Below, piece by piece: positions 11,328-61,302 of a stretch of DNA of 64,000 bases (its first letter is position 1; every line of letters starts with the position of its first letter). The DNA is from Dacryopinax spathularia (Eukaryota; Basidiomycota; Dacrymycetes; Dacrymycetales; Dacrymycetaceae), in the NCBI GenBank assembly GCA_037974965.1, contig JBBPFI010000004.1:2108001-2172000 (forward strand), in the 5' to 3' direction. The position numbers and the translations under genes are program-made. Under the pieces are notes generated by a model, which made no database searches, was not told the origin of the DNA, and was given only the letters and a program-made list of their open reading frames with translations.

Positions 11328-11531
11328 TTAAGGGCCCTGGTAGTTGCCCCCAGTGTTCTGAGTGCCGCCACCGGACTGCCAGTTTCCGCCGGTGTTCTGA
11401 GTGCCGCTGCCGTGCTGAGTGTTGTTGCCGGTATTTTGAGTTCCACCGCCGTACTGAGTGTTGCCGCCTGTGGATTGCTGCCCGCCGCCCCACTGCGTGT
11501 TGCCGCCCGTCTGCTGCTGTCCCCAAGTCAT
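11328..11531 (-). CDS. Small Gly/Gln/Asn-rich tandem-repeat protein, type A (A1)
   Basis: Intronless ORF of 67 residues from ATG at 11531 to TAA. After a short MTWGQQQ leader the whole protein is 13-residue repeats: TGGNTQWGGGQQS, TGGNTQYGGGTQN, TGNNTQHGSGTQN, TGGNWQSGGGTQN and a final partial TGGNYQGP. By direct count, 44 of 67 residues are Gly, Gln or Asn. It has one His, no Cys, no acidic residue and no hydrophobic segment, so it is probably cytosolic and intrinsically disordered or amyloid-prone. The composition recalls the oligopeptide repeats of the yeast Sup35 prion domain; that is an analogy, not homology. Two close relatives lie at 14.9 and 35.2 kb, and a diverged class (type B) faces it at 13.5 kb. 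Low-complexity sequence alone could be noncoding, but the shared start, stop and TATA spacing among three copies argue for a gene. Confidence 0.7.
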   Translation of the reverse strand: MTWGQQQTGGNTQWGGGQQSTGGNTQYGGGTQNTGNNTQHGSGTQNTGGNWQSGGGTQNTGGNYQGP

Positions 11532-11676
11532 GTTCAGGTGTTGTGGTAGAGCTGTAAAAGACGATAAGAGGTGGGCGTGGAGGTTGGAATAATGCGCTTA
11601 CTGTATGAGGTTGTTCGAAGAACGGACGTGCGAAAGGCAGTTGGTTCCTTGCTGCTGGATTCTTGCAAATCGGTGG

Positions 11677-11685
11677 TATTTATGC
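11677..11685 (-). promoter_or_regulatory. TATA box of A1
   Basis: GCATAAATA on the minus strand, about 150 bp before the A1 ATG. The other two type A genes have a TATA element at the same distance. Confidence 0.55.
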
Positions 11686-13018
11686 ACTTTGAGTATCACA
11701 CAAGGTCCGTTGTTAAGCCGAGTGCTTGCGACTGCAATACGCTAGAAGGACCGGCGATTTGTAGAGCTCGGACTTGCCGGAGGTGTTGGCCCATTCACTC
11801 TCTTCCTTTCATCCGATCTGGAGTGGAGCCAACCCCTAAGTAAGAGTGAGCTCGGATGATCTTACGCATGCGAGTCAGAGCTGAGTTGTGTCGAACGAAA
11901 CATGAAGAATTCTTCTAGACTCGGAAGCACCGGTGCTTTTGCCAGGCCGATACCAGCGGACGGTTGCTACGCGCATGATTGGTGCCAGCTGTGCTATACA
12001 TACGCTTGTGGGCCCGTTTCTTCGTCCGAGAAGCAGGTTTTGAGGGCGTGACGCCTGCTTGTATCCGCTTGTGTTCAGTTAGGTCTTGTGCTCAGAAGCC
12101 ATCTCGGACTAGAAGCCAAGAGGACCTCAACGTGACGGGTCCTCGGCGGAGCTTGCTACACAGGCCCGTGCTGCATATTCTTGAACACACCAGACCCCAG
12201 ACAGCAGCATGCCCACGGATTCAGAGAAGAATCTCAGTGCAGAGGCCGGGCTGAGGATGAATCCTGAGCATGCGCCTTCCGAGCCGGCCAGCCGGTATAG
12301 CGTGGATGAAGCAGCATGAATGTGTTTTGGGCTCCTTCGCAGGGACGCGCAGCGGATGAAAGCGGATGGCGGCTGGGCAAAGGAGGTCGGCCACTGGACA
12401 GTTGCTGGGACCGCCACAACCGTACATTCGACATTGCGAATGTGCCCGAGTCGCAACGTTGTGGCGATCCGATTAAATGCTGGAGATCCGGGATGAGAGA
12501 CCGAAGTGCGTGAAGTGGAGCCACGAGCTTCTCATGATCTTGAAGAAAAACATCCTCAGTACTCGATCGAGTGCGTACTTTGCCTTCAAATGGATACGCA
12601 AATCGGCAGCCAGCGACCTGAACTTGACTGGTAAGATAGGTCGTCTTGGCCTGGGCCTATATATGGAGATATCTTACAGTTACCTCATTCAGCCGTTTCT
12701 CGGTGGTTCTGCCGCAGCCAACCCCTGGGACGAACGGTGCGACATCCTCTCTGACGATATGGCTGGATAAACCAACTGAAGAAGGCATGCATTCGAATCG
12801 CGCCTGATATTGCGCCATTGACGCTGCGCTGTACTTCGAAGGTTCATAATTGCTGTGACAATATTGAGATCATGCCAAAATAGCGTTCAGAGGGCATACC
12901 ATGAAGTGACCGGAGGATCGGGGAGGATCAGGGAACATGGGGGAAGCGTCCTTTATGGTTGCTGACGAGATCCGGAATCTGCAAGAGGGGCGCGACGTCG
13001 TGCTTCTCTCAGGGTATG
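11686..13018. other. Intergenic spacer between A1 and B1
   Basis: Head-to-head gap between two small repeat protein genes. Only short unsupported frames are present. It ends in the conserved upstream block of B1. Confidence 0.45.
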
Positions 13019-13040
13019 CCGGCGTTTAAAGATACCGGTC
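13019..13040 (+). promoter_or_regulatory. Conserved upstream block of B1
   Basis: CCGGCGTTTAAA followed four bases later by CCGGTC, preceded by a CTTC-CTCAGGG segment. It begins 451 bp before the B1 ATG. Near-identical blocks precede B2 (37191, 454 bp) and B3 (60308 on the minus strand, 453 bp), and an orphan copy sits at 16879. Conserved distance and orientation point to a regulatory element or core of a duplicated promoter. Confidence 0.55.
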
Positions 13041-13350
13041 ATCAGGATTCACCTGACCGTCTCAAAAGAAGCAGTATGTGAGACGACCAGTTCGCCTTCG
13101 GGACCATTGGTGATCCGTCTGGCAGCGATCCCTGGTCCTTCGAGACTAGCGGTATCTTCATCGGTGCAGGTGTCACCGGCGCCTCGAGCGGACCAAGACA
13201 GTCCCCGGCCGGGACTCAGAGACCGGGATAAGTCATGCCGAGAGTCGCACAGCTAGACGCGTAGTCGGAAGTGCTGAGTTTCCGAGGTCGTTCTGGGGGG
13301 CAGGCTGTGCGTCGACGGCGTGCTGGCATTTTCGGATATCGAAGTGTGTG

Positions 13351-13358
13351 GATAAAAG
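13351..13358 (+). promoter_or_regulatory. TATA box of B1
   Basis: GATAAAAG about 119 bp before the B1 ATG. Matching elements lie 114 and about 121 bp before B2 and B3. Confidence 0.55.
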
Positions 13359-13469
13359 GCGCCGCGATGTTTTTGTTTTGCTCAGCTCGACCCGCTGCAC
13401 CTTCAGCATCCGTCCGTCCTCAGCTGCGAACTGCCAACACACAGCGATACCTCACCTCCACGCGCGACC

Positions 13470-13780
13470 ATGTCCAACTACCTCCCTGACGGCAGTTTCA
13501 CCTTCACCCGGTTGCCGCCCGGCACTCCCAATCCGAACTCCAACGGTGAATATCTCAACCCGGGCGGAAAGTAAGTCGTATCGTCCTTTTCGTTGATCAG
13601 AGAGCTGAGGCAGATGTCAGCGGCAACAGCAACAACTATTATATCAATCCATACTACCAGAACACCGGTGGCAACACGCAGTACGGCAATGGCTGCATCA
13701 ACACTGGCGGGAACCAGCAGGAAGGATTTCAGCAGGGGAGAATGCAGCAAGGAGGAAACCAATGGGGACGACGATGGTAG
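13470..13780 (+). CDS. Small Asn/Gly-rich protein, type B (B1)
   Basis: Two exons, 13470-13570 and 13621-13780, encode 86 residues. The N-terminus MSNYLPDGSFTFTRLPPG is followed by a Pro/Asn stretch. After the intron come NGNSNNYYINPYYQNTGGN, the repeat TGGNTQYGNGCIN and a second TGGNQQ, then a Gln/Gly/Arg tail. The intron position (phase 2, before the NGN) and the N-terminus are nearly identical in B3 at 59.6-59.9 kb. That conservation across a splice site, and of the encoded protein, is good evidence for a real gene. There is no signal peptide or membrane segment. The single Cys in the GNGCIN turn is kept in B3. The function is unknown. The repeat unit is shared with type A, so I infer the two classes interact or co-assemble, which is untested. 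Confidence 0.78.
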
Positions 13781-14880
13781 ATGCCTAGCTCCACGCCTCG
13801 AGATAGGGTGATCGTCTGCTCTCCTGTCGTTGGGTCAACAAGGCGGGGTGTAATCTCAGTCGCGGCGGTATTCTTGCAGAGCGGTCCATGATTTTGCTGT
13901 GTCATGCGTTACTTTCTTTTATTATTGAGAATGTATTACTGTTCGCTCACCTAGAGACTATCGCTCATGCATCCGTATTTGGCAGCGGAAGAAAGTGAAC
14001 GGCTGAGGCACCACGAGCATGCCGTGAAGACTCGGCCATCTCGCATATCACCTGCACGACCCTATCAAACGAGAATGAGGCCGTCCTGTCTGGCTAGTGC
14101 ACGCACTTGAGCAACAGCCCGTACTAGTATAAAGTTTGACATGCGTACTTCAGTGAGAGCCTGCCTCCGCCAGCCTTTGCTCGTGCGGCGACTGTCGACG
14201 ATACGACGTACGCGCATCGCCAGCACCGAGTTGTCCCATTCAAGAAAACCATGCCTTGTCAAGTAGGTATGGCATCTGGCAGAATTAGGGTGACTCGGAC
14301 CGCAACAATTTAGATAGTGACGTACCTGTTATTCGGCGCGCATGGGTTGGCTTAGCGGATGTACCATCGGGCTGGACGTTGGCGAGCGACTTCTCAGTTG
14401 AATTTAGGGCATAATGAGCCGGTTGTGGGAGTTCCCCGCATACGGCCAGGCCGAAGGTGCGAATGAAGGGGATACTGGGTACAGTTCAGTGAGGATAAGT
14501 CGACCACTCTTGCTACAAGGGCCTGGCGATTCCTGCGCGTTGCGGGCGGAACTTGAACCGGGCGCTTCTTTCCGCGCTTAGAACTGAAGTTGCCCCTAGT
14601 AAGCTCGAACCTATTTCAACGACCTGCTTCACGTCTCACATCCATGATCGTGGTCGTGAACACGGGTTTCTTCAACACTTTAATCAATAAGCTCGCCTCG
14701 ACATCCTGACTACACACAAACACGATCGCCGCACATAGGAATCATAGGGAACTCAGACGAGACATGGAAGGAAAGAAACAGACGAAAGACGGGAAGAGTT
14801 TCATCATGCCCTCCGCGCCACGCTGCGGCATCCTTCCGCTCAGCCTCGTACAGTCGGCTAGAGGGAGTGTCGCTGGCCGT
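13781..14880. other. Intergenic spacer between B1 and A2
   Basis: 3' flanks of two convergent small genes. No domain-bearing or spliced frame was found. Confidence 0.5.
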
Positions 14881-15114
14881 TCAAGGGCCCTGGTAGTTGC
14901 CGCCGGTGTTCTGGTATCCGCCGCCGTACTGCTGGTTGCTGCCGGTGTTCTGATACCCGCCGCCGTACTGCTGGTTCCCGCCGGTGTTCTGGTAGCCGCC
15001 TTGGCCGTACCCGCGCTGGGTGTTGCCGCCGGTCCACTGCTGTCCGCCACCCTGCTGGGTGTTGTTGCCGGTCTGCTGCTGGGGGTAGCCGGGGTTGCAG
15101 TTGTTGGGCCACAT
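14881..15114 (-). CDS. Small Gly/Gln/Asn-rich tandem-repeat protein, type A (A2)
   Basis: Intronless ORF of 77 residues; ATG 15114 to TGA 14881. After MWPNNCNPGYPQQQ come TGNNTQQGGGQQW, a longer unit with an inserted GGY, then TGGNQQYGGGYQN, TGSNQQYGGGYQN and TGGNYQGP. The last eight residues are identical to those of A1. It is the most tyrosine-rich member, and the QQYGGGYQN units closely mimic yeast prion-domain repeats in composition. It is preceded by TATATAAA about 154 bp upstream. Downstream of its promoter, at 16.6-16.9 kb, lie the upstream blocks normally found before a type B gene, but no B coding sequence follows. Confidence 0.7.
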   Translation of the reverse strand: MWPNNCNPGYPQQQTGNNTQQGGGQQWTGGNTQRGYGQGGYQNTGGNQQYGGGYQNTGSNQQYGGGYQNTGGNYQGP

Positions 15115-15262
15115 GATTGAAATAGGTTCGAGGTTAGAGCTGCGGGAGGGTGTTTGAGTAATTGACTCGTATGATGAGAACGAGTGTCTCACCTGTGGGA
15201 GGTCTTTAGAGGATGTAGGGCTGAGTTGTTGTTTGCTGCCCTCTACCGTCGAAAAGGCCCGG

Positions 15263-15271
15263 TTTATATAC
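15263..15271 (-). promoter_or_regulatory. TATA box of A2
   Basis: TATATAAA on the minus strand in the context AAGCGTATATAAA, about 154 bp before the A2 ATG. A3 has AAGCGTATAAA at 155 bp. Confidence 0.6.
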
Positions 15272-18200
15272 GCTTGCAGCCCTATCGCGACCGGAGAGGT
15301 TGAAGTCCATGAACTGGCTGCGCAGAGCTAGAAGCTCCGGTGATTTCGCCAACTCGACTGCCGGAACGTTCTTAGGTAGGAGTTCTGCCACTCTCGGAAC
15401 GGCTGGGCAGGTGCGGACTCCAAGATAGGTCGTCCAGAGGAAACATCCAGATGATCTTGAATACCGATATGGAGCGCCTTGCCTCTCGAAGTATGTGGGC
15501 GGGAGCCCTGGTCGACTAGAAGCACGGGAAATGTGAACGGCCGAACATGCAATGTCCATGCGAGTCGAGCTTGTTTCCTTCTTAGGTGTAGAAGGGCAGA
15601 GTGGTGACGAAAGTGGTTGTCCCGGAGGCAGACGCAAGAGAATCTCGACCATTAGGGGCCCGGGTCGTTGTTGATTCAGGACGTCTAGCGCATCGGCGGA
15701 ACGAGCTGCCGAATCCTGCATTCGTCGGACGTGAAAGCAGGCTGAATGCGTAAATGCGACACCAAAGCAGGCCAACGAGGGCCGTGACCCGGTCCATACA
15801 TGTGCCGGGACGACCACATCTGGTCTCGACCACACCAACCCAGCGCCAGTCAAGGAGGACAAGCAAGACCGCGCACAGGCCGAATGGTTCGTAAGGCACT
15901 ATCTTGGTACGAGGATAGGCAAGGTTGACTCGGAAAACACGGGGATTGAGCCCCTACACAAGCTCGTGATTGAGCTCATATCGCTGATCCCGCCATATCT
16001 CTGACGCCGAGCGGCGCTAGTCCAGGTTTGGAAATTCAAGCACGCTTCGGCGGACGAGCAGTACTATCGCCGCCATACTCCAGATTGGGAGTCACGGAAT
16101 GTTTCGGGCGGCCCACGTGCTGTGTCCGGGACTGAACAAGCAAGTCGGAAGTTGTTTCTGTGACGGCGGTCATGTCGGGCCAGCAGAGCGTCTTCTAGGG
16201 GTTGCATGGTCAGTCTGCAGTCACGCGTTGTATTTGTGGTCGGTACTTACCTCACGCCGGCATGAAAAGTAGCGGTTTTGCAGTGCGCAGAAGGCAGGTC
16301 TTCCAGCTTTGGCGGTAATTTGGCGGTTTTGTATTGGGAGAGATCCGCCCGCAGGTTGAGATAGCGCACACTCCTCCTGATGGGACCGAAGCCAAACCGG
16401 GAATCCCTGTCTTGAGGTGCATTCTTCCGAATCCCCTACTCGGTTCATCGAGCACAATATGTCCTATCGTCCTCGAAAAGCACAGCATGGCCAGCCGTTA
16501 CCATTCCGCTGAGCCCGTATGGGCTGCTGTGCACCTCGTGACTGCATTATTGGTAGCCTGATTCGTAAGACTTCCTTGCAATTGGTCTGATGGTGTACGC
16601 GGATGGACAGACAATGGTGTGCGGTTGGCCGGATATGTCAGGGTAAAGAACTTCCTGAAGAAGAAAAGTGTTCGAATGGAGCCTGATGCTGCGCCGCTGA
16701 CGGAAAAGGAAGCTCGATTGGGTTCGGTGTCTGTGGCGCCAGTGAGATTGTGCGAAATAGACGGGTTAAAGACGAACACGTCACCGGAGGAAGGAGATAG
16801 AACATCGAGGAGGTGGACCCCTATGCTTGCTGGCGAATGCCGAACTATATGTGGGGACCATGCCGTGCTTCCTTTCTCAGGTGTTCCCGGCGTTTAATAG
16901 GCCCCGGTCGCATGAAATCGCCTGAATGGCTTCTACAATGGTGGAACTGGCGACTAAACACGGCCGTGTCCTTGTCCAGCTTCGTGCGGAAAGGCAGCTT
17001 TTGATTCGGAATAGCGATGTCTCCACGGTATCTGCGCGCCTGAACGTACCCAGGCTCCCTGCTCACACCGGTGATGAAGGAGCGTTCGTGCTCGAGCTGA
17101 TGTTGCGTGAATACACGCCAGTGTGACCGAGATACTGTGCGGTGCTGTGGAATATTGGCGCAGTAGTCCCTTCCATCGAGATACTTGTGATCCGCGAGCC
17201 GCATCGTCGTATTATCAGCGGAAAAAACCGCTTCCCACTTGCGCAGCTCCGTAAACGCCTTGCGCCTGCTGAACCGCATCAGCCTTGTCCCCTCACGTAA
17301 GAGCACAGTCATACTCACCTGGCGACCAGGGCATGTCCGAGACTCTCTCCCTGTATCTCATACTCTCCCAGGGCGTGTCCACCACCGCGATTTTGACAAG
17401 GCGAATGAGGATCGGATCGCCGATGGGGACCTTGGGATGATGGGGATCAACTCCGTGTCTAATCGGCGAGCCTTGATATCATGATTGCGGTGATTCGAAG
17501 GTAATGATGAGGTTGAGCGCTGCAGCAGATTGGAGCAGATGAGGCATGACGATGACCAACATTGCGCATGAGCTGCGCGGCTCATTCAAGTGCCGTTTTG
17601 GAGCCGGGGTTATCGTGCGCATCGCCCGGCGTTGTAGGTTGTATTACCTCCTACTGTCGACGTAGACATAGTGGCAGAGAATATGAGCGACGGAGCTCTG
17701 CACAACTACGGCGTTTGGAGATGGACGCGTTCAAAGGACGCGACACCGAGGACGCACATCGAAGGGTGTCGCGCTCTGATTGGTCCGTTTGTTTTTCCCG
17801 TGGGCGCGAAATATGACGCCGGTCTCCTTGTGACTGAGACCATACACAGATCGTGAAAGATTGTCCGAGGTTCGGACGCGTCCGGGTCCCGTACATACCG
17901 CCACCCGAATCCCTATAGCCGGTAGTGGCCGTGTACTTATGTCAGATTACTATATAGGGACTTAATGTCGATATTGTTCGCCTGACTCACAATATCAACA
18001 CCATACTTCATCCTGCCCGTGAGTTTGCATCTGATAACAGCTGTTCTTGAGGAGAAGTAGCAAACGACTCCGCCTACCACTATTTTTCGATTTGCGCGAG
18101 TACCAAAAAATGAATCGCCCTGCAAGACGCCGCTTGCGAATCCCCCACAAAGGTCGCACTTTGGTCAGCGACTTTTCAACTCATCCATTCTCGTCCCAAA

Positions 18201-19578: not shown

Positions 19579-20609
19579 GACATGGTCTCAAGGAACGCAC
19601 AAGATACTAGTGTCCGGTTCTCACTCATGCTCTTTCCTCTTTTTTCCTCTCTGTCTGTCTTTCTCTCTCAGTCATCGTCCCTTTCCTTCCCCCGGTTCTC
19701 ACTGTTCAGATCGGTCTAGCTTTACCGCAATCGCGCATCGTGATACCGTAGACTTGATCCATGTTCGTTTGTACAGAACATGGGATAAAAATGCATTGCA
19801 GTTGGCCTCGTACCTATACATCAATGGGGGACGTTTCTATTCTCGCCCCTCGTGACCCCCCCACAATCCAGAACCACCCTTCTCAGGCTGGTAGCCCTGT
19901 CAATATGAGCGAGTATCGCGGCATCGCTTGCAAATACCCCACAATCCAGAACCACCCTCTCAGGCTGGTAGCCCTGCCAATATGGGCGAGGATCGCGGCA
20001 TCGCTTGCAAATACCCCACATGCCTGAGTAATGCGCTTCATGAGGCCGGAAGGTTCTGTCCGCTACATGTCCTAGCGAGGGATCTATCGCAACTTCAGTA
20101 GCAGGTCATCCTAGGCATCCACTGAGGGAAGACTTGCGCATCTTTGCTCGAGCTGAAAGCCATCGTCTGAAACTATCGTCTTCGGCCTGGCGTATCCTTC
20201 CTCGAGCCTGTTGTCACCTTCGTAAACCATTCCGAGCGATCGATGGTTTCGTGCCCCTGGCCTTGTAAATCCGTCAATGTACCAAGGTTCCAAATGTCAT
20301 TTGCCTGTCCACGAACACACAGCAGTCCGTTACACTTGTTCTAATGTACTCTACTCGGCAATGGAATCAATAGCGACGCTGCCCTTGAAGTATTTGCTTT
20401 TTGAAAGTTGCGTGCTGCCTTGAGCATTGATCATCCCTTCGTAATTCGGGTGTTCCCAGACCTCTGCCAATCTCCCATCCGGAAAGTCCTCTGCTCCACT
20501 GAAGAAATGCTGTCAAAGCAGCTCCTCGAGTTCGTCCACATCGCCACGGCAGGCTGGACCTTGCTCATCATAATACTTGACGGGAACTGCTGCCAGGGTT
20601 AGCCGTCAT
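19579..20609. other. Intergenic spacer with minisatellite
   Basis: Pyrimidine-rich 3' flank followed by two and a half copies of the 78-bp repeat, listed separately. Nothing else is supported. Confidence 0.5.
19848..20015 (+). repeat. 78-bp-family minisatellite, about 2.5 units
   Basis: Repeated CCACAATCCAGAACCACC - CTCAGGCTGGTAGCCCTG - AATATG - GCATCGCTTGCAAATA blocks. This is the same unit that forms four exact 78-bp periods inside the gene at 23.5-24.7 kb. Confidence 0.8.
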
Positions 20610-23477: not shown

Positions 23478-24714
23478 ATGCAGACGGGTCTTGTGCCCCA
23501 TGGCGCTTGGGACGCGTCTCCTATGCCCGGTACGCAGTACGCTAGTTGATCCGTGTCAGTCCGCTAACAATCCAGCAGAGTTGAGTGAGGGCGCTCAACT
23601 CGCCCGGAACATGGCCGAGCACAATGTTCCTGATCCCGATTCGGGACTGAACCACCTTTCCGGGTTTTCTATCGCCTCCAACATTGTGGCGAACCGCGGT
23701 GATCCTTGCGGATCTTCCACAATTCAGAATCACCCTTCTCAGCCTCGTAGCCATGCCAATGCCAACGCAGACCACGGCATCGCTTGCAAATCCCCCACAA
23801 TCCGGAACCACCCTTCTCAGGCTGGTAGCCCTGCCAATATCACTGCGGATCACGGCATCGCTTGCGAATCCCCCACAATCCAGAACCACCCGTCTCAGGC
23901 TGGTAGCCCTGCCAATATGAGCGAGGATCGCGGCATCGCTTGCGAATCCCCCAACATTCAGAACAACCCTAACAGGGCTCGCACCGCCTCCAACATTAGG
24001 GCCGGTCACGGCGTCGCTTGCAAATCCCCCAGAATGTCGCACTCCCATCCTTCAGTGGGGTTCAACGGTGCGTTCGATTGGGCGGACGCGCTGGGAAGCG
24101 GCCGCCAAGCCCGAGCCTCGTCGTTGCCGTCGATCAGCAGCATCGATGCACAATATGCGATGGATGCAGCCCTGGAGCGGACTATTGAGCGCCTGGATGC
24201 GTACGCTGCCTATCTCCGCGCGGTACAGCCCAGGAACGATGTAGAGGCTGCTGTCATTCAGGAGCGGCTTCGCGTGATGGCAATTTGGCGCGCAGCCGTG
24301 GTAAGCAAGCAGGAGCCGGATCTCCTGCAGCTCCTGTGCCTTTCTGGCGATGCGCCCCCACCCTATCAGCCTTCTTGGGCTTCGAAGTTTGTTTTTGGAC
24401 CGGACAAACCCACAACGAACGCTACGCCCTTGCTGTCACTTCGCTCCGAATTCTTGACCGCTCCCGCCGTCGACGCACTCAACAATTGCGCCAAGGGATC
24501 CTCTCATCTTTCGCTTGGGTACGGCCCTCAAGTATATACGAGCGCCAGTGCCGCCGACCTTTACCAGGCGAGGCGCGATGAAGACAATAGGCTTGCCCGC
24601 GAACGGCGCGATCAGAACGGGCTTCGCTCCGTGATTGCGCAGATCGTCAGCTGGTGGGCTAGCGTGAAGACCGCCTATACTCCAGCCTACTCCCCTGTCT
24701 GCGTTTCCATGTGA
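23478..24714 (+). CDS. Repeat-containing orphan protein (minisatellite in frame)
   Basis: Exons 23478-23529 and 23576-24714, 396 residues. The ATG at 23478 is preferred because its splice joins cleanly to ELSEGAQLARNM. Residues roughly 70-165 are a tandem 26-residue repeat, GIACESPTIQNHPSQAG..., encoded by an exact 78-bp minisatellite at 23776-24010 and degenerate flanking units. The C-terminal half is non-repetitive, with a helical LERTIERLDAYAAYLRAV segment and a charged RRDEDNRLARERRDQ segment. There is no known domain, signal peptide or membrane segment. The same repeat occurs outside genes nearby, so the coding part may have captured a spreading repeat, or the noncoding arrays may be decayed copies of this gene. 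Confidence 0.55.
23701..24035 (+). repeat. 78-bp minisatellite within coding sequence
   Basis: GGCATCGCTTGC (or GGCGTCGCTTGC) recurs at 23776, 23854, 23932 and 24010, exactly 78 bp apart. A more diverged unit precedes the array. The period is a multiple of three, so the frame is kept. Confidence 0.9.
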
Positions 24715-26616: not shown

Positions 26617-26895
26617 GTGTGGGGCATTCGCAAGCCAGGCCATGATCTGCAGGGATACTGGCAGGGCTACCAGCCTGAGGAGGTTGATTCTGGGATGTGG
26701 GTGATTCGCAGGGCTACCAGCCTGAGAAGGGTGGTTCTGGATTGTGGGTGATTCGCAAGCGATGCCGTGATCCTCGCTCATATTGGCAGGGCTACCGGCC
26801 TGAGGAGGTTTGGTTCTGGGTTGGGCGTGATTCGCAGGGCTACCAGCCTGAGAAGGGTGGTTCGGGGTTGTGGGTATTTCGCAAGCGTCGTCTTG
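26617..26895 (-). repeat. 78-bp-family repeats, inverted and deleted
   Basis: Several AGGGCTACCAGCCTGAG and TGTGGGTGATTCGCAAGCGA units, the reverse complement of the arrays at 19.85 and 23.7 kb, with internal deletions. Confidence 0.85.
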
Positions 26896-35187: not shown

Positions 35188-35388
35188 CTAACCTTGACGA
35201 TTACCGCCCGTGTTCTGAGTGCCGCCGCCGGTCTGCCTGTTTCCTCCGGTGTTCTGGGTACCACGGCCGGTCTGCCTGTTGTTGCCCGTAGACTGGGTGC
35301 CGCCGCCACGCTGGACATTTCTGCCGGTGTTCTGCGTTCCGCTACCGCGCTGCACGTTGCCGCCGGTGTTCTGCTGGTTTCTGGTCAT
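35188..35388 (-). CDS. Small Gly/Asn/Arg-rich tandem-repeat protein, type A (A3)
   Basis: Intronless, 66 residues, ATG 35388 to TAG 35188. After MTRNQQN come TGGNVQRGSGTQN, TGRNVQRGGGTQS, TGNNRQTGRGTQN, TGGNRQTGGGTQN and TGGNRQG, all of 13 residues. It shares the repeat frame, start-proximal unit and promoter spacing with A1 and A2. However, every aromatic residue is gone and Arg takes the variable positions, making it strongly basic. That is a coherent change in all units, not random decay. The TATA box is 155 bp upstream. It faces B2, whose ATG is 2.26 kb away. Confidence 0.7.
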   Translation of the reverse strand: MTRNQQNTGGNVQRGSGTQNTGRNVQRGGGTQSTGNNRQTGRGTQNTGGNRQTGGGTQNTGGNRQG

Positions 35389-37539: not shown

Positions 37540-37644
37540 TGCTGTTATGCTCTCTTGCTCAGCACCAACAACCAGCTGAACCTCACCAGAATCAGCCTCA
37601 CTACCGCTCGTGCGCAACAACAGTTTACTCACCTCTATCCGAAC

Positions 37645-37921
37645 ATGTCCTACAACCCGCAGTCATCTGGTAACGGAAATGGTGGATATCCCGATCCTCT
37701 CGACGAGTAAGTCGTATCCGGAAACTGCTCCGCGATGGGTGACTGATCTCCCCTCCAGTACCATATACAACACGTATTACATCAACCCCGTGTACCAGAA
37801 CACCGGCGGCAACACTCAGAATGGCGGTGGAACCATGAACACTGGCGGCAATACTCAGCAAACCGGAGGACAGGGGCAAGGCCACACGTACCCGAGGTTG
37901 AACTCTGGCCCCTGCTGGTAG
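37645..37921 (+). CDS. Small Asn/Gly-rich protein, type B (B2)
   Basis: Exons 37645-37706 and 37759-37921, 74 residues. The N-terminus MSYNPQSSGNGNGGYPD differs from B1 and B3, but the intron phase (2) and the second exon are conserved: NTYYINPVYQNTGGN, then TGGNTQNGGGTMN, TGGNTQQ and a short tail ending in GPCW. There is no signal peptide or membrane segment. It lies opposite A3, repeating the A1-B1 layout. Confidence 0.75.
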
Positions 37922-39048: not shown

Positions 39049-39899
39049 GTGTGTCACGCTCAATTGAAGGAGAATAGACGCTGCGGTTCAGCCATACCAC
39101 TAGACGAGTGCTGCTGGGATCGTAAGCCCGTCGTGGTGGACGAGGCTCTACCTACTGCTAAGATGGCAAACGTCGCCCAGCCTGCCACTCTTCTTGGTGC
39201 AAGCGTCACCATTAGCTCTGCTCAGCAGCCAACACCACGTAGAGCCGTTAGGTTGACGAACTGGGAAGATCAAGATGATGATGATGATGCTGATGATGGC
39301 GACGACGTCGACGACGCTGATGATGACTTTGATATTGACAGGCAGTGAGTAAGAACAGGACTCCTCACGAATAGGACACTGAGTTCAGAGCCAGAAGCAC
39401 CGCCAGTAGCGTGACCATCAATAACAATTCGAACAACACGGTCTATCACAATCACCTTTACTACCAGAACACGGGCGGTAATATCCAGTACGGCAAGGTT
39501 TCCTGGTTGAACACGGGCGGCAATCAGGAAGGCGAGCCGGGTGATCTGATACGGTACCCATCATCGGGGGACATCGCGGTGAGAGGGAGGCCGGCGTATG
39601 AGATGTCATTGAGAGGGGTGCCCGTGATCAGGGTGAGCGGTAGAGATGGACCCTCCCAATCTGTGGGACGTCCTGAAGCCTGGATGGGCAGGGACGAAGT
39701 GTCATGGGGAGCAGAGGCGAGCTATCGGATGAACGGGTCACAGCAGCACCGATATGGGACGCCTCCATCAGTTGGGAGCAGCAGCGTCGGCATGGCACCC
39801 ATGGGAGGCCGGACCGTGTCGATAGACACAGTCTGTGGTCATGACGAGGAGCCCTTCATGGTGCTGTTCCGAAAGGTCCGTGAATACGATACTACTTGA
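39049..39899 (+). CDS. Chimeric acidic protein with TGGN repeats (type D)
   Basis: Two exons join near 39344/39404. The first is open from at least 39049 but has no ATG at its left limit, so the start is uncertain; an in-frame ATG lies in TAKMANVAQP. It ends in a run of Asp-rich sequence (DQDDDDDADDGDD...). The second exon starts with QARSTASSVTINNNSNNTV, then YYQNTGGN, TGGNIQYGKVSWLN and TGGNQEG, clearly related to type B. It continues for about 130 residues rich in Arg, Gly and Ser. The stop at 39899 may be removed by another splice (GT after 39876 to AG near 39930), which would extend the frame to about 40077. It is the largest family member and the only acidic one. Confidence 0.55.
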
Positions 39900-49883: not shown

Positions 49884-51220
49884 CTACTGAGGACAAGCGC
49901 GACCATCCGGAGAGTGCTTCGTCCCGTGTCCTTCCAGCAGGTGCTCAAGCTGATATTCGTAGTAGCGCCCCTTGGGCCTCGTATCTTCCAGCCACGGATC
50001 AGGTCCATACGGGAGATTGAGCCCACTGCGCTCCATATAGTCCCTCACTTCCTTCTCGTTCCTGCGCCAGTGGATCGAATCGATGTCAGACATGTTGCCG
50101 CCCCGCTCGTAGGTCGCTTTGACGATCTGCGCCAGTTCTATCGGGATGCGTGAACCCTTGCATTGGTAGTTGCGAGGGTACCACTTGTCGTCAGGACCCA
50201 TGGCGCGAGACTGATAGTTGGGCAGGGACTTTACACCCAAAGCGCGGAGGATAACCTGCTCGACCAGGGAGTAGTCTGCAGGATCCTCACGATTGAAGTT
50301 GTAGGGATCCTTGAGACCAACATGAGGATTCGTGATGATACGAGGGCGGCGAACATAGTTCTTTCCGACGGTATGCGGCTGCGCCAGTCTTAGCATTGGC
50401 AGGGTGCAGGCGGTTGAAGGCAGATACGTACCAGCAGCGAGTGCAAGGCGAATACATCACCCTTCTTTGCGACAACCTGGACGAACTTCTTGCAGTCCTT
50501 GACGTGCCCGTATAGTGTCTCACCCTTGAAGGGCCATTTGATCCCTTGTGGTCTGTCGTGCAAGTAGCGAACAACGCCTTCGATACCGTCCTCGGCGATC
50601 CAAGTCCCTCCGCCGTCCTCTACGATGTCGGAGAAGCACACGATCAATGTCAGCGCGTTGCCGGAGGCATCCAGAGTCTGAGTGTACCAGTCGTTATCCG
50701 TGTGCCATCGAGTGAGTTGATGTGGAGGAAGACGGTTATTCTATGGCAGCTGTTAATAACGAAGACTTCACGCAGTGTCGTAGTCACGACTCACAGGATC
50801 GAGGTCGGCACCTCCAGAGTTAAAGATGAACTGATCGCCCTGGTAGCGCTCGCGGACTGGATGGAGACGATCTTCCCCTCCCACGAGTTCGCCTGCGCAT
50901 GCAGTGAGCAACCGCGCAGAAGCGATGGTATGGCGCGATGAAGACATCAACGTACAGATCTTGGGCCAAACCTCAGGCATGAGGACCTCGTTAAGGACCT
51001 CCTTGTGTCTGGGCATAGCGACATCTTCGTATGGCGGCCAAGTGCTAGGATCGTCTTCCTTCGCCCCAGGACCCAATCGATCCCAGAAGTTCTTCAAAAG
51101 GTACTCCATGGGCTCGCGAGCCAGCGCGTTCTCGAACTTGACCCAGCCATGCTCGAGGAAATGGTCGCGTTGCTCTTGTGAGAGGTGCTTATACTTGACG
51201 GGCACGGTGGCATCTCCCAT
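49884..51220 (-). CDS. PhyH-like Fe(II)/2-oxoglutarate dioxygenase, copy 2
   Basis: Exons, read leftward, are 51220-50956, 50892-50795, 50740-50432 and 50378-49884, giving 388 residues. The metal ligands are H134 and D136 (WHTDNDW) and H226 (LPHTVGKNY), with R237 eleven residues later for 2-oxoglutarate. All three introns match copy 1 in position, and the C-terminal GTKHSPDGR motif is shared, so the two are recent paralogues. Compared with copy 1 it has a few extra residues in the KEDDPSTWPPYEDVAMPRH region. It is divergent from MFS copy 2, mirroring the copy 1 pair. The substrate is unknown. Confidence 0.9.
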
Positions 51221-51862
51221 GTTTGTAGTACCTGAGCTGGGGGAAGAGGGCAGGACGAGACAATCAGTAGTCCGACTGGTCAGCTCGGTGGCATATTAGA
51301 GAAGAGATGGTCGAGCTGTATCCCTCTCCCTGTCGGCCGAAATCGTGTTCGAGGACACCAGACTCGGGCCGACTTCCTGGCGAGATAGTCAAATCCAGGA
51401 AGGTAATTGGCGGATAAATCCAGTTACGTTCAGTTGCTCGAGGTACATTGACAGTTCGGTTGAACATAAGTACGGTTCTCTATTTACCGGCATCAACGAT
51501 GTCATGCCTTTCCCCGCAGAAGACGATTGGTTCCGTCAAAAGCGGGGCCGCCGCCCGATGAATTCAATTGAACCGCCCGCCCTCCACAAAAATTCGTTAT
51601 CCTCCACACCCGCCGCCATGTCAGCAGGACAATGTAGACTTCCGGCTCTCGGCTTTGACTCTTTCAAGCTTGAAATTAGACTCGCTGCGGGGCCCCATGA
51701 TCTTCTCAGGCAGAGCCAGCAGCTCGCCCTTGATTGTATAAGGTCGAGAATGAGCTATAATAGTCGGGAAGGCAATCTTCCAGGCGACTCCTCAGGCATC
51801 GCTTCTTGTTGCCTACCTTTTGCAGCAGGCGATTGCGTGGTTACCATCGTCTACACAACACC
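51221..51862. promoter_or_regulatory. Shared divergent upstream region of PhyH copy 2 and MFS copy 2
   Basis: 642-bp gap between divergent starts, equivalent to 8680-9619. The palindrome TCGGCCGA occurs near 51333 and a related ATCGGCCG near 9448. This is too little to call a site. Confidence 0.5.
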
Positions 51863-53467
51863 ATGGTTGGCCACCACGCCCCGACAGACTTTGATCGCCG
51901 CATTGCCGATGTTTTACCAGAACGCAAGGGCTGGTGGAATTACTGGTACCTTTGGCGACTCAACTTCGCCCTCCTCGCCTCGATCCTGTCGCAAGCAACC
52001 GGTGGCTACGATGGATCACTGCTGAACGGCCTTCAGTCATTGCCGCTATGGACTGGGTACTTCAATCATCCCGCCGGTGCGAATCTTGGCGTCCTCAACG
52101 TCGCACTCTCCATCGGGCAGAGTGTCGCCATTTTGGTCGCTGGTTACATGTGCGACTTTTTCGGTCGACGTATTCCGTTGGGCATAGGCTGCTGGCTCGT
52201 GCTCATCGGCTCCATCATCGGTGCTGCAGCAACCAGCTTCGGCATGTTCTTGGGTGCACGCATCATCGTCGGCTTCGGTTGCGGTCTTCAGCAAGTTGCG
52301 AGCTCAAGTCTGTTGGCCGAGCTCTCGCATCCCAGCCAGCGTGTGCAGGTACAGACCATGTTCGCCCCGTCGTATCCGCTTGGAGGTATTGTTGCCGCAT
52401 GGGTCACCTACGCCACCTACACCTACACCACGACCTGGAGTTGGCGTCTTCCGCTAGTCATCCAGGCTGCATTTGCCGCGCTGCAGTTTATCTGCCTTCT
52501 CTTTTGCCCGGAATCGCCTCGTTGGCTTGTTGCAACGGGCAAGCGTCAGAAGGCGATCGATGTCCTGGTGAAGCACCATGCGAATGGAGACCGCGACTCT
52601 CCTTTGGTGGAGCTCGAGATTGCGGAGATCGACTCGCAGATCGAGGCCGACAGCATCGCAAAGGCGTACTCGTGGAAGGAGTTCTTCAAGACGAAGGGCA
52701 CACGTCGCCGATTCTACATCATGTGCTTCTTCCCTTTCGCCCGCCAATTCACCGGCTCCAACCTCATATCCTATTTCCTGCCGCTCGTCCTCGTCAGTGT
52801 CGGTATTACGAATAGCAAGGAGCAGCTCATCCTGAACGGCGGCGTTAACATCTGCGCCTTCCTCTTCGGCATTTCTGCCTTCCTTTATGTGGACTACTTC
52901 GGTCGTCGACCCGTGCTCATCCTTCCAATGGCCCTATGTTCTGCCTCTTTGGTCGTTTGGACCGTGCTCGGCGCGATGATGGATCACTCCACCAATAAAG
53001 GTCTTGGCTATGGAATCGTCGCCATGGTCTTCTGGTTCCAAGGCTGGATCCACGTTTTCGATGCGGCTGCCGAACCCTACATTCAGGAAATGTCGACCTT
53101 TAACCTCCGATCGAAGATCGTCGTGATGTGGCAATTCGGACAGCAGATCGTCTACTACATCAGCTCATTTGCCAATCCCGTGGCAATGCCCGAGCTGGGT
53201 TGGCGGTACATCATCATCTATGCCGTCCTAGATGCGGTCTACAGCCTTGTCATGTTCGCTTTCTTCCCAGAGACCAAAGGTCTCTCGCTGGAGGAATGCA
53301 TGCTTGTATTCGACGGCGCTGAGGGCATAGAGAGGCAGCTTGCGGCAGAACGCGAATTTGAGGAGATGAGGCGTGCACATGGTATCCTGGAACCTGGAGT
53401 CGCTGTGGAGAGTCTGGAATCGGGCCAAAAGCTGGATGTTGAGCATATCGAGAAGAGCTCTGTGTAG
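51863..53467 (+). CDS. MFS sugar (lactose-permease-like) transporter, copy 2
   Basis: One exon, 534 residues. The ATG at 51863 (MVGHHAPTDF) is chosen over the open frame upstream because the homology with copy 1 starts there. It shows the same order of sugar-porter motifs: GGYDGSLLNG, CDFFGRRIP, GARIIVGFG, PESPRWLVATGKR, VDYFGRRP and FFPETKGLSLEEC. Most residues are identical to copy 1, apart from the two termini. Both copies lack introns, so intron loss happened before the duplication. It is paired divergently with PhyH copy 2. Confidence 0.92.
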   Translation: MVGHHAPTDFDRRIADVLPERKGWWNYWYLWRLNFALLASILSQATGGYDGSLLNGLQSLPLWTGYFNHPAGANLGVLNVALSIGQSVAILVAGYMCDFFGRRIPLGIGCWLVLIGSIIGAAATSFGMFLGARIIVGFGCGLQQVASSSLLAELSHPSQRVQVQTMFAPSYPLGGIVAAWVTYATYTYTTTWSWRLPLVIQAAFAALQFICLLFCPESPRWLVATGKRQKAIDVLVKHHANGDRDSPLVELEIAEIDSQIEADSIAKAYSWKEFFKTKGTRRRFYIMCFFPFARQFTGSNLISYFLPLVLVSVGITNSKEQLILNGGVNICAFLFGISAFLYVDYFGRRPVLILPMALCSASLVVWTVLGAMMDHSTNKGLGYGIVAMVFWFQGWIHVFDAAAEPYIQEMSTFNLRSKIVVMWQFGQQIVYYISSFANPVAMPELGWRYIIIYAVLDAVYSLVMFAFFPETKGLSLEECMLVFDGAEGIERQLAAEREFEEMRRAHGILEPGVAVESLESGQKLDVEHIEKSSV

Positions 53468-56239: not shown

Positions 56240-57428
56240 CAGGAGTGCAGAGAATCAGGGGGAACCTTGGATAGAAGCGGTACCCGAGAAGAGAGGCGAG
56301 GATGTTGGAGCTTTGGCCTTCTTATGCGGCCTTCCAAGTAAGGCAGCTTGGCGAGTAAGGAGTTCCTGAATTGGCTATGCGGGGCCCCAGTTGGACTGCC
56401 ACTGAGCGTGGGGTCAGTGGCCTTATGCGCGCTCGGTGTTGAATTGTGCCGGAGCAGTTTTCCTTGATGAGCTGAGACGCTTTACAGTCCAACTTGTGAT
56501 GCGCTGTTTCTGCGGGTCGCTTTACTTGCCACCCTTGTCGTCGAGGTGTAGCTTTCATCTCGCAAGGGGTTGCTTGCCAGCAGATGGCTCGGGGTTTTGT
56601 TATACCGGAGCATGCCGAGTCTTTCGACCTACCGGCATGCGAAGGCTAAGTGCAACCGTATTTTGACAGGAGGCCAGGGGGCCTTGTAGGGCCCGGACTT
56701 GCAGGGGAGCACTCCAAGGTACGCGGAACATGGTCTGAGTTGTGGCGACGCGAGTTTGGTTCCATCAGGGATCGTCGTCACGGGATGCGCCTACCTCCAC
56801 ATGACCCAATACGGAAGAGGAATCAATCCCGATCGGAAGCCGAAGGAAGTGCCGTCGAAGTTGGTTTCGTCCGTTCTTCAAGCTCGACCTTCAATACACC
56901 AAGAACACAAAATCCCACGTTCTGCTACGCCCATGGCCTATCCTGTATTCATTCGTTTCTGGACCAACAACAACAGGGGTTCCCTGGCGACATTCTGCTC
57001 GCACTTTGCAGCTTCGATTCCATCAACAATAACGTAAAAGCCACAAGACCTCATGCTTGCTATCCGTAGCTCGGTGAAGCACTTAGTCCGGAGGGTCATG
57101 AAACTGACCATGGTCATGGGGGCTGATGGTATTATTCGGCAGGCTTGGAATGGCGCTGCAAGATCGCTGCGCTTGGGTAAACTGCATTCTCAGCCCGCTT
57201 GACGACCCCTGGGATCGTAGGGGCTCGTAGGGGCTCAGAGGATCCTGACGACGCACTTCAGCTCGGTAGAGTACTTGACCCGAATCTCTGAGACAGAAAA
57301 CCCGTGTAACTCGGTGGAAAGAATTCAGCCGAGGCAAGGTTCAAGCAGATCACGTGAAGACAGATCTGGTATAAGTGGCTCTTGACATCTCGGATCTGTT
57401 CTTGCCCCGTGATCGTATCCAAGGCACG
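56240..57428. other. Divergent upstream region
   Basis: Separates the anion transporter (-) from PhyH copy 3 (+). No other gene is seen. A third transporter/dioxygenase divergent pair is thus formed, though with a transporter of another family. Confidence 0.5.
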
Positions 57429-58589
57429 ATGACAACCGAGAAGAAGTACCGCTATCTCACGCCGGAAGACGAGAAACACTTTCTGGAGCATGGATGGCTG
57501 CTCGTTCCTCAGGCGATCAAGCAAGAGTATATCGACAAATGGATGGCGGATCTTTGGACGAGGATCGGCTACGATCCAAACGACAAGTCGACTTGGCATA
57601 CACAGTACTTGCATTTACCGCGACACCGGGAAGTGCGAGCTGAAGAGTTCGCTCCGAAAGCTTGGGACGCGATCTGTGACCTGGTAGGCGGTGAGGACAA
57701 GCTTCATCCCTACCGGGAACGGTGGTACGGAGACCAGTTCATCTGCAACTTTGGCTCGGAAGAGCTCACCAAGCGAGAAACTCCTGAGCCTCCGCAGGAG
57801 CGGACAACTTGGCACATCGATAACGACTGGTTCAGGCAGTTCCTGGATTCGAGCGGTGTCGCCTTGACTGTGATCCACTGCTTCACGGATATTCTGCCGC
57901 GGGGCGGAGGAACTTTCTTGGCCGAGGATGGTATTAAAGGTCAGCGTTTCCTTGCAATCTATTGCGGAAGAGCTACTGATTCGTGGGGAAAGGTGTCTGT
58001 CAATTCTTCTACGACCACCCGGAAGGGCTCGATCCGCCGGATCATAATGCTTGCTGTGCTGGAATCAAGGATTGCAAGAAGTTCACAGTCGCCGAAGCCA
58101 AAGCAGGCGACGTAATACTCCTTCACGGCCTGCTTCCACATACCAATTCGCTCAATTACCGGCATTATGCTCGGGTCATCTCCAATCCCCATGCTACCCT
58201 CAGCGAGCCGTACAACCTCAATCGGGAGGATGGCAACTACGTGAGTGGTCCCTTGCATAACCTCCAATATGCCTGACCATACTGACGGTACTCTGAAGTC
58301 TTTGGTCGAGCAAGTCATCCTCCGCAACCTGGGTCGCGACTCGATCCCAGAATACAAGCCCACCCGAGAGCGTCTCTTCTATCGTCCGCGCACTTTCGGC
58401 TTCAAGTATGCCAAAGTTGACGAAGAGCTGCGCCGGATGATCGAAGCTGCGGAGAAGAAGGGACTCGATCGCTCCTCCGTGGACAGCATCTTCCTACAGG
58501 GCGAGGACGTGATTAAGGAGCATTGGAGGAGGAACGGGTACGATTTGCCCATTGGGCCTAATGGATTGAACATGGTGCAACATAAGTAG
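57429..58589 (+). CDS. PhyH-like Fe(II)/2-oxoglutarate dioxygenase, copy 3
   Basis: Exons 57429-57939, 57993-58240 and 58299-58589, 349 residues. The ATG at 57429 (MTTEKKYRYLTPEDEKHFLEHGW) aligns with the starts of copies 1 and 2. Ligands are H129 and D131 (WHIDNDW) and H220 (LLPHTNSLNY), with R231 at the same +11 spacing. Its introns are at different positions, and it lacks the C-terminal GTKHSPDGR extension, so it is an older paralogue. Downstream of the distal His the GKNY motif is replaced by SLNYRHY, which may mean a different substrate. Confidence 0.9.
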
Positions 58590-59552
58590 TTTACTGTTCC
58601 GTTTTGTATTAGGGCGGAGCGATAGGGAGGCAGGTTTATGTTGTAACCCAGATATTCGATTTCATACTAGAACTTTTCGCTCACCTATGAGACGTCTTTC
58701 TCTTGACTGGGATCTCGCGTAACGATATTCGAAGCGCGATTGCATATGGGTGTTGCCTGTACATCGACACCTGATACGTTTGGTACAGCAGTTCTTCTTT
58801 GATCATCGTAGCAAGGAGAAAAGGCATGGAAGTATGCAACGCTGCCAACCAGAGCCACTCGACTTTCGGATCTGCCAGAGTCTCTACAGTCGGATGGTAC
58901 ATTCGAAGCTTTCACAGGGTATCTGTTCAATTCGGACCACGAAGCTTCAGCTACGGTGGTCCACTGGTAAATGAGGGTTCAGGCCAGAGGCAGACGCGTA
59001 ACCGGCTTCATCAGTTTGCTCTCTAACAACCCGCTCGCTACTTCACCTCCGCACTTACTGTTGCATCACAAGATACGTCTGACGCGGCCGGTCCTCTCAT
59101 CGGTATCGAAAGCATGTACGGGCTATGAATTGGATGATAAGGCGACGCCCGATGGGCTGGATGCGAGTGTTCATGAGGTGCGCATGCCTGCCCTCTGGTC
59201 GTACTTCAGAAGCTGATCTTCACACCTGTGACCGTCTTCCGTCAAGATAATCAAGAATACAGGGCAGAACCTCGCGACCAGCGAACAAGCCGACTTCTGC
59301 ATCTGCAGCCTCTAAGCTGGACGACGGACCCGACGTGCTTTTCCGTGGTACCTACGATCGGAGTGGAAGTCTGGGCGAGTAAGCATGCAGTTATCAATAC
59401 TTTCAACGAGCAAGGCAGCTGATGCCTGATAGAACCATGAGCGTACACAATCTACCTTACAAGACTCATCAATGTGATGCCTGGCTCGATCAAGAGACAC
59501 AGCGCATACCCCCTAGCCATCCGGCCTGCGCCTTGTGTAACCCATGGATCTA
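58590..59552. other. Intergenic spacer
   Basis: 3' flanks of PhyH copy 3 and the small gene B3. No feature is supported. Confidence 0.5.
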
Positions 59553-59855
59553 TCAACGTCTACCGTATTGCCCGCCTGGCCACTGCTGTCCTCCGCCCTG
59601 CTGGTTGCCGCCGGTATTGATGCAGCCATTGCCGTACTGCGTATTACCGCCAGTGTTCTGGTAGTACGGGTTGATGACATACGTGTTGCTATTACCGCTG
59701 GAATCGAACTCAGTGCCAGGATCGCTTGGTTTGCCGTGGAGGACGTTGACTCACTTCGGCCCGACGTTGCGATATTCCCCGTTCGAGTTCGGATTGGGCG
59801 TGCCAGGCGGGTGCCGGGTGAAAGTGAAGCTACCGTCGGGAAGATAGTTGGACAT
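59553..59855 (-). CDS. Small Asn/Gly-rich protein, type B (B3)
   Basis: Read leftward from ATG 59855: exon 59855-59755 and exon 59697-59553, 81 residues. The first exon is almost identical in protein to B1 (MSNYLPDGSFTFTRHPPG). The second gives NGNSNTYVINPYYQNTGGN, TGGNTQYGNGCIN, TGGNQQ and a Gly/Gln/Arg tail ending GRR. The intron position and phase are the same as in B1 46 kb away. The conserved block lies 453 bp and the TATA box about 121 bp upstream. Protein-level and splice conservation make this the best-supported member. Confidence 0.8.
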
Positions 59856-59969
59856 GTTCGTGTTTGTTACGAGGCGAGTAAGCCCTTCGTCTGGTGCAAG
59901 TGGACACAGCTGATATCATTGTTACGCCTTTAGCTCATCTGGCTCGACCATGCAAGCGCTAAGCAAGGC

Positions 59970-59977
59970 CTTTTATT
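59970..59977 (-). promoter_or_regulatory. TATA box of B3
   Basis: AATAAAAG on the minus strand, about 121 bp before the B3 ATG. Confidence 0.55.
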
Positions 59978-60287
59978 TCCGCCCTTCATGACACCAATTA
60001 TCTAGGTCGTCGGGGAATAGGAGCTGCTATTCCGATGCGCAGCTGGCATTCGGAACTTGCGACAAACACGCTCGTGCAAACCCGATCCGGCACGATCAGA
60101 CCCGGTCTGGGCAAGTCGTTCTCGAGCCCGTGAGCTGGCTCAGGGCTGCGGGTGATGCTAGCACAGCGGGAGATGGCAGCTAGTGTGGAACCTGCAGGAG
60201 CCCTCGCCACATGAAGCACGACAACGGACAAGGTGGTGGAATGTCTTCACTAGTACCTGTCTTGACATGGTCAGACGGTGCTTGCAC

Positions 60288-60308
60288 CCGGGACCTTTCA
60301 AACGCCGG
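60288..60308 (-). promoter_or_regulatory. Conserved upstream block of B3
   Basis: On the minus strand, CCGGCGTTTGAAAGGTCCCGG preceded by CTCAGGGACTTG. It begins 453 bp before the B3 ATG, in the same orientation and distance as in B1 and B2. Confidence 0.55.
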
Positions 60309-61056
60309 CAAGTCCCTGAGAGAAGGGAAGCCCGTGGCTACCTATTTGGGTCCTTGGGCAATGTAGGGGACGCCATCCACCTTCTTCCCGTATGCACCCT
60401 GCTGTGTATGGTGTGTTCGTCTTCCGACATCTGTATCTTCACATTCTCACCAGTATTCTTGAAGAGTAAACCTTCCGTCTACGTCAATGGCGCAATACCA
60501 AATTCCCGCCTCTTCCTGGCCGCGTACCATCGCCTTCTGGCCCTGTCTGTATGCTGCAAAAGAAGCCGCTGCGGTGCTGCCAGGATAAGGCACGACTACC
60601 CAGCATGGCAGGAGCCGTCCTACATGCTGCTTGCCTTGGCCGCAGAGGGTTGCCGTGAAGTGTCACATGAGGAGAGGCAAGATGACGACGGATGATCGAA
60701 GTTCCGAGCCACCGAGTCAGCGTTCTTCTCTCAGGAAGACAATCATTGGATGTCACCTTGCGGGACAGCTGTTGAATGTGTCATCCGGCCCTGGTAGTCT
60801 CTCCGGTCATGCATTCGGAAAGCAGGCTCCACAGCTCCAATCTGATGAGCGCACTAGCGAGATCGTCTCCGGTCAACAAATCTACAAAAGCCGACATCTT
60901 TGCAGGCAGTCGTAGCGCCACAACTCTGCAAACCCCTTGCAGCATCCACCAGTTCTCATCCTCTTACAGCCGCTCTAACAAGTAAGCGTATTAGTCCAGC
61001 CTCTGGATGAGTCGTTGAACGCCATCTGACAGCTTTACCTCAAACCGCTTTCCACC
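60309..61056. other. Intergenic spacer between B3 and the type C gene
   Basis: No supported feature apart from the block at its left edge. Confidence 0.45.
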
Positions 61057-61302
61057 ATGTCATCAAACAACAACGGCAATGCGCAAAATACCGCGGGCTA
61101 TCGGCAGCCTGATTGGTGGCAAGGGAGACGGCCTGTTGGCCCGATCTGCGACTGCGCTTGGCGCCGCGCTGACGGGACTTTGGACCCCAGCTACTACTAC
61201 CAGTTCTCCTCCGGCAACCAGCCGTTCGGCGCGGGCTACGTGAGCAATCAGTCGAACGGTGGCTGCATTCATCACGGCAACTACAACGGTCAGGGTCGCT
61301 GA
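61057..61302 (+). CDS. Small Asn/Gly-rich protein, diverged (type C)
   Basis: Single exon, 81 residues, ATG 61057 to TGA. The N-terminus MSSNNNGNAQNTAGYRQPDWW is basic, with paired cysteines in CDCAW. The C-terminal half, SYYYQFSSGNQPFG - GYVSNQSNGGCIHHGN, follows the type B pattern YYQ-x5-GN-x-Q-x-G with a Gly-Gly-Cys-Ile motif, but the TGGN consensus is lost. Its position head to head with B3 matches the A-B arrangement, so it may be the diverged partner. The homology is weak and inferred from pattern and place. Confidence 0.5.
   Translation: MSSNNNGNAQNTAGYRQPDWWQGRRPVGPICDCAWRRADGTLDPSYYYQFSSGNQPFGAGYVSNQSNGGCIHHGNYNGQGR

Follow-up and report, generated by a model that had tools for sequence, protein, structure and literature searches.

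The window analysed here, a stretch of 64,000 nucleotides (nt) from the basidiomycete Dacryopinax spathularia (contig JBBPFI010000004.1, here C4, positions 2108001-2172000), contains a cluster of genes for proteins that are built on a repeated unit of 13 residues, T-G-x-N-x-Q-x-G-x-G-x-Q-N. The loci were identified by a six-frame reading of the window and by searches with single proteins across the genome (29.2 Mb in 24 contigs). The unit is encoded in seven open frames within the window, called A1-A3, B1-B3, and C, and the A, B, and C loci are real genes. Together they constitute a real repeat-microprotein family that is undescribed within the collections searched, namely Pfam, the PDB sequences, bacterial and archaeal genomes, viral contigs, and the literature. 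Our preferred reading, to which we assign a probability of roughly 0.45, is that these are locally expanded, cytosolic, self-assembling microproteins. Judged from the sequences, self-assembly is likely.

Evidence for genes under constraint

The first-pass annotation of this DNA, made from the letters alone, had read the loci as a protein-coding family, and comparisons of paralogues within this genome bear this out by revealing constraint at the protein level, with synonymous change far in excess of amino-acid change. The ratio of nonsynonymous to synonymous change (dN/dS, Nei-Gojobori counts) is below 0.5 in all six paralogue pairs computed (B1/B3 0.10, A1/A3 0.18, B3/B2 0.20, A1/A2 0.27, B1/B2 0.27, and A2/A3 0.44), at dS values of 0.8-2.5 that are hence partly saturated. 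The differences between B1 and B3 fall on codon positions 1, 2, and 3 in numbers of 3, 4, and 14 in exon 1 and of 1, 3, and 13 in the first 102 nt of exon 2, and those between A1 and A3 in numbers of 17, 10, and 32. B1 and B3 are 79% identical in exon 1 and 83% in these 102 nt of exon 2, while the identity is 65% in the intron, 52% in the 150 nt upstream, and 42% downstream.

The layout of the genes is also shared. A1-A3 are uninterrupted coding frames, and the three type B genes have an intron at a common phase, as the annotation had claimed (Table 1). In all five of A1-A4 and D, a leader intron of 50-54 nt is predicted, with its end 20-25 nt upstream of the ATG (50 nt in A1, ending 20 nt before the ATG, 53 nt in A2, and 54 nt in A3). 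As a background, we used 463 ATG-to-stop frames of 60-90 amino acids (aa) in a stretch of 139 kb. Seven of these, the five family frames included, have a leader intron within the same ranges, which were chosen after inspection of the data, and 107 have one within loose limits. A TATA-like box is placed at -150 to -156 in all four A genes (A1 -153, A2 -154/-156, and A3 -155). The only background frames with a box at this position are the four A genes themselves, and 20 of the 463 have one anywhere between -220 and -90. The looser word ATAAA is found at -118 in B1, -113 in B2, and -121 in B3. The dN/dS values, the codon positions, the common intron, and the placement of the TATA-like box rule out that the family is a product of chance or an artefact of the reading frame.

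Members of the family

Eight members had been proposed. Seven of these carry the unit at the positions given, and the eighth, D at 61.1 kb, has no TGGN and is a probable distant member. Its link to the family is based on the leader-intron layout that it has in common with the A genes and on a match to the B motif as YYQxxxGNxxxGxG, which was obtained in one ungapped alignment against the three B stretches and their consensus, and which 13 of 5000 shuffles of D equal in score. The term microprotein suits A and B, which are small, but not C, which has an Asp-rich first exon, two TGGN units, and a C-terminal part of more than 100 aa. The family extends past the window, as A4 and a degraded B4 are located on the same contig. 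In B4, TGGN has turned into TGGK, TGGG, TGGD, and TGGE, the repeats are spread over two frames, and no in-frame splice acceptor was found by eye. B4 thus looks like a decayed B copy.

Table 1. Loci of the repeat family and neighbouring PhyH-like genes. Positions are those of the window unless the contig is given; exons are listed in the order of transcription.
Locus	Position	Strand	Description
A1	11328..11531	-	ATG at 11531; 67 aa; five TGxN-x-Q units
A2	14881..15114	-	77 aa; five units
A3	35188..35388	-	66 aa; five units
A4	C4:2176625-2176858		Outside the window, same contig; found by a single-protein genome search (matched stretch C4:2176625-2176855)
B1	13470..13783	+	Exons 13470-13570 and 13621-13783 (end approximate, stop included); phase-2 intron of 50 nt; two units
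B2	37645..37921	+	Exons 37645-37706 and 37759-37921; phase-2 intron of 52 nt; two units
B3	59553..59855	-	Exons 59855-59755 and 59697-59553; phase-2 intron of 57 nt; two units
B4 (degraded)	about C4:2191.6-2192.1 kb		Outside the window, same contig; matched stretch C4:2191853-2192126
C	39163..39899	+	Exons 39163-39344 and 39395-39899; phase-2 GT-AG intron of 50 nt; 228 aa
D	61057..61302	+	81 aa; without TGGN; probable distant member
X1	9560..10905 (approximate limits)	+	PhyH-like dioxygenase paralogue, multi-exon; convergent with A1; PhyH match below threshold (E 0.045)
X3	57375..58586 (approximate limits)	+	PhyH-like paralogue, resembles X1 and X2; convergent with B3

Gly, Gln, and Asn make up 62-68% of the residues in the A proteins (66% in A1, which agrees with the 44 of 67 residues first counted), 46-48% in the B proteins, and 21% in C. 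The composition is prion-like, as had been noted, in that it is rich in Gln and Asn, of low complexity, and poor in charged residues; this was assessed without a predictor. A1 contains no Lys or Arg at all, and the exceptions are several Arg residues in A3, Arg in the ends of the B proteins, and the Asp-rich exon of C. No signal peptide or leader was seen by inspection of the family proteins (no predictor was run), and they are apparently non-secreted.

The 13-residue unit

The spacing between units is 13 residues in 14 of the 15 A and B intervals; the remaining interval, in A2, is 16 residues, and that in C is 14. We tabulated 14 complete A and B units; the tabulation excludes the 16-residue unit in A2, the final unit of each of A1-A3, the second unit of each of B1-B3, and both units of C. 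T1, G2, N4, Q6, G8, and G10 are constant in all 14, while Q12 and N13 are each present in 11. Positions 3, 5, 7, 9, and 11 are variable, with Tyr, Trp, and Arg scattered over them, and alternate with the constant positions 2, 4, 6, 8, and 10. The search expression preset G2, N4, Q6, and T or S at position 1; the constancy of G8 and G10 and the variability at positions 5, 7, 9, and 11 are free results. The omitted 16-residue unit of A2 also retains G8 and G10. An alternation over ten residues is as would be expected of an extended strand of which one face forms a ladder.

Between units of the same A protein, 46% of the synonymous sites in the first six codons differ (30 comparisons), and we therefore reject recent repeat slippage as their origin. 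By this measure the repeats are old, with the caveat that the choice of units fixed some residues; the low amino-acid difference among the A units is likewise partly forced by the way in which they were chosen.

Among the copies, the coding DNA of A2 and A4 is identical, stop codon included, while their 150-nt flanks are only 49% and 48% identical, although a fair similarity persists over about 30 nt upstream of the ATG. The simplest account would be gene conversion restricted to the coding sequence, since the dS of 0.87 between A1 and A2 indicates that selection on the protein alone would hardly keep the coding DNA identical.

Distribution and relatives

Genome-wide motif searches were made with exact residues in the DNA and with the reversed pattern as a control. 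TGGN-x-Q has 26 matches, compared with 14 for the control; 20 of them are in the cluster, and the six outside it are single units in unrelated frames. The ladder GxNxQxGxG has 40 matches, 19 of which are in the cluster, and the other 21 are not above the control of 28.

The annotation had found no known domain, and a Pfam search at E≤10 with eight family stretches (A1-A3 whole, exon 2 of B1-B3, exon 2 of C, and D) agrees, as no family scores above its curated cut-off in any of them. Glycine-rich matches below threshold were obtained for B2 and B3, the best of which is a GRP match in B2 at E 0.47, whose 11.6 bits fall short of the cut-off of 30, and exon 2 of C has no Pfam match. The PDB sequences contain no relative, the one match being an unrelated nanobody at E 1.4. 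None was found in bacterial and archaeal genomes and viral contigs, where 34, 81, 120, and 73 stretches fit the pattern and none was confirmed, and nothing in the papers found names the unit. The claim of an undescribed family holds for these collections and does not reach to fungal proteomes. In other basidiomycetes, small proteins rich in Asn, Gly, and Thr that contain related units may carry a hypothetical annotation, and this lowers the claim to novelty.

Comparison with known systems

Yeast prion domains of the Sup35 type contain repeats rich in Gln, Asn, and Gly with aromatic residues, as do the proteins described here, and the resemblance is one of composition. Proteins of the Sup35 type also bear a folded functional domain, whereas type A is nearly all repeat. 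The 13-residue ladder looks nearer to motifs of the PP/RHIM type (fungal HELLP, SBP, and PNT1, and animal RIP kinases). Excerpts of the relevant papers give the PP amyloid motif as NxGxQxGxN (PMC9815663), with GxQxG in common with RHIM (PMC5485727), and the core of this type of motif as G-phi-Q-phi-G (PMC7885112). Similar to these, the family has a short unit with alternating conserved Asn, Gly, and Gln and a Q-x-G core. However, it forms a tandem array of 13-residue units rather than one motif of about 20 residues, and its GxNxQxGxG has Asn instead of Gly two positions before the Gln, so that the GxQxG core is absent. The Asn at position 4 was preset by the search expression, but a reading of the whole proteins gives the same result. 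Furthermore, no receptor and effector pair with the exact motif was found in the genome, where 12 of 21 NACHT matches were inspected, and the family proteins lack a Pfam domain. From these residue patterns, the family would be similar in build to the PP/RHIM motifs but is not a member.

By composition, the nearest described repetitive fungal proteins in the literature found are DDR48 and Cprp, which according to excerpts of PMC10512284 are Asn/Gly-rich and prion-like. The repeat core is S-Y-G there and T-G-x-N-x-Q here, and the two are set apart by description only. The multicopy wtf genes of fission yeasts would offer an earlier case of self-assembly within a conflict system rather than a presumed relative of this family. 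Self-assembly has been shown for wtf and is proposed here, and the wtf proteins are extremely diverse in the account excerpted from PMC11892871, whereas this family is conserved; the two were likened without a comparison of sequences.

A proposed self-assembling family and its alternatives

In the preferred reading, about nine residues of each unit would form one extended strand, followed by an N-T-G-G turn, and the conserved face would stack as N/Q ladders. The free protein would be disordered and convertible to a cross-beta polymer, of which type A, being mostly repeat, would be the core, while B and C would carry the unit to other sequence. Because the unit is common to all three types, and because A and B are divergently placed three times (A1/B1, A3/B2, and B3/A4), the three would probably co-assemble. 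The most likely use may be an intracellular switch-like assembly, for example in stress, storage, or self/non-self signalling. A more specific version, which we regard as unlikely, is a two-component amyloid without a receptor, in which divergently transcribed A, nearly pure repeat and acting as seed or scaffold, and B and C, which join the repeat to other sequence, would co-polymerise via a previously undescribed 13-residue N/Q ladder, with gene conversion keeping the copies seed-compatible, possibly as a self/non-self or selfish-element switch. If the units polymerise, they would represent a prion-like repeat from nature whose register is regular, housed in tiny proteins that serve a single purpose and have no NLR context, and they would be suited to studying how N/Q ladders encode specificity. 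Polymer compatibility would then be linked to sequence identity among the copies by gene conversion that affects the coding sequence alone.

Several observations weigh against the preferred reading. The beta-solenoid that had been suggested is unsupported, as AlphaFold2 gave no confident structure for A2 (mean predicted local distance difference test score, pLDDT, 38.0) and two short strands but no confident fold for exon 2 of B1 (49.0), from shallow alignments of 3 and 4 sequences, respectively. Such low confidence would be compatible with amyloid but lends it no support. The units left out of the tabulation are looser, in that the second unit has lost G8 in B2 and the Gly at position 10 in B1 and B3, and in C the first unit lacks the Gly at position 10 and the second has Glu at position 6. 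Glycine at about one third of the A positions is also compatible with a liquid-like or elastic disordered polymer, and outside the cluster the genome shows no partner with the exact motif above chance. The pairing is imperfect, since D and a 5.4-kb copia element separate B3 from A4, and A2, C, and B4 have no partner of this kind. With the pattern used, no TATA-like box was found in C or D, and the best 9-mer (one mismatch) occurs in five of nine upstream regions, a number that 20 random sets reach or exceed by one, so that no common promoter word emerges.

A possible but doubtful alternative is that these are low-complexity disordered proteins of the DDR48/Cprp sort, which form condensates or bind RNA without an ordered polymer. 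The lack of a confident AlphaFold2 fold and the Gly/Asn/Gln-rich sequence with Tyr, Trp, and Arg at variable positions are in line with this, and so is the basidiomycete Cprp, a repetitive prion-like protein that is reported to affect pleuromutilin production and to be located at septa (excerpts of PMC10512284). However, the register of 13 residues, kept in 14 of 15 intervals, and the alternation in the complete units go beyond what composition alone would require, and the S-Y-G core of the DDR48/Cprp repeats, as excerpted from the same source, is absent from these units. Amyloid signalling of the NLR type, with the units as templating motifs common to a receptor and an effector, is decidedly unlikely. 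The ladder of Gln, Asn, and Gly at every second residue is similar to the PP pattern and to the GxQxG shared with RHIM (excerpts of PMC9815663 and PMC5485727), and the genome contains at least 21 NACHT matches, at least 20 of them over the cut-off. These are grouped on contigs C8, C11, and C14, with none on C4, and none of the 12 NACHT frames examined, of 21 matches, has an in-frame TGGN upstream of the P-loop. In addition, no NLR or HeLo-type domain was detected in 60 Pfam scans, which covered 59 distinct frames in the window and the DNA flanking it (smaller exons left out). TGGN-x-Q and GxNxQxGxG, as exact residues, exceed chance in the cluster only, and signalling via the exact motif is mostly refuted by these genome searches.

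A selfish or conflict system, in which A and B, or allelic versions of them, would be a co-assembling pair of the killer/antidote kind, would explain the multiple copies, gene conversion, pseudogenes, and transposons. The three divergent A-B arrangements, the decayed B4, the identical coding DNA of A2 and A4, and the retrotransposon insertion fit such a system, and the wtf drivers have a self-assembling poison and a co-assembling antidote (excerpts of PMC11892871). We nevertheless consider it very unlikely, as the low dN/dS here differs from the rapid divergence described for wtf in these excerpts. Most improbable are multi-core precursors of ribosomally synthesised and post-translationally modified peptides (RiPPs), for which nearby dioxygenases, a P450, and transporters would be the tailoring genes. 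Similar cores are indeed repeated, and three PhyH-like paralogues, a P450, and sugar-type transporters are close by, but A1 without Lys or Arg offers no basic processing sites, the transporters are of the sugar family, and the dioxygenases match PhyH only below threshold. Both RiPPs and a secreted coat were rejected, as inspection without a predictor revealed neither signal peptide nor leader.

Genomic neighbourhood

The neighbours of the family are three sugar-transporter frames, two of them long, a P450, and the three paralogous PhyH-like genes. Two of the PhyH-like genes give PhyH matches below threshold, and the frames of X3 itself have no Pfam match; X1 is probably outside the repeat family. 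A sugar transporter and a PhyH-like gene are duplicated in inverted orientation (7048-8880 on the minus and 9560-10905 on the plus strand, and 51764-53467 on the plus and 49887-51295 on the minus strand), and the third PhyH-like paralogue is beside B3. No known RNAs or tRNAs were found in the window. The contig ends 45 kb past the window, and neither of two telomere patterns occurs in its last 139 kb; a subtelomeric expansion is thus not shown.

Two copies of a copia-type retrotransposon, at 62344-67734 and C4:2100966-2106356 (window -7034 to -1644), are 99.98% alike, with terminal repeats of 402 bp and an open frame of 1533 aa, which suggests that they moved recently. One of them is located between D and A4. 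Near A4 and beyond B4 are two paralogous multi-exon genes, L013 (69274-71049) and L016 (96702-98463, both in window coordinates), whose DNA is about 71% alike; three frames of one copy have no Pfam match. The region upstream of B3 (60131-60528) and that upstream of the decayed B4 (83096-83495 in window coordinates) are still 68% alike. Related minisatellite arrays are found at 19859-20020 and 23705-24035, both with units of about 77-78 bp, and, inverted, at 26655-26887.

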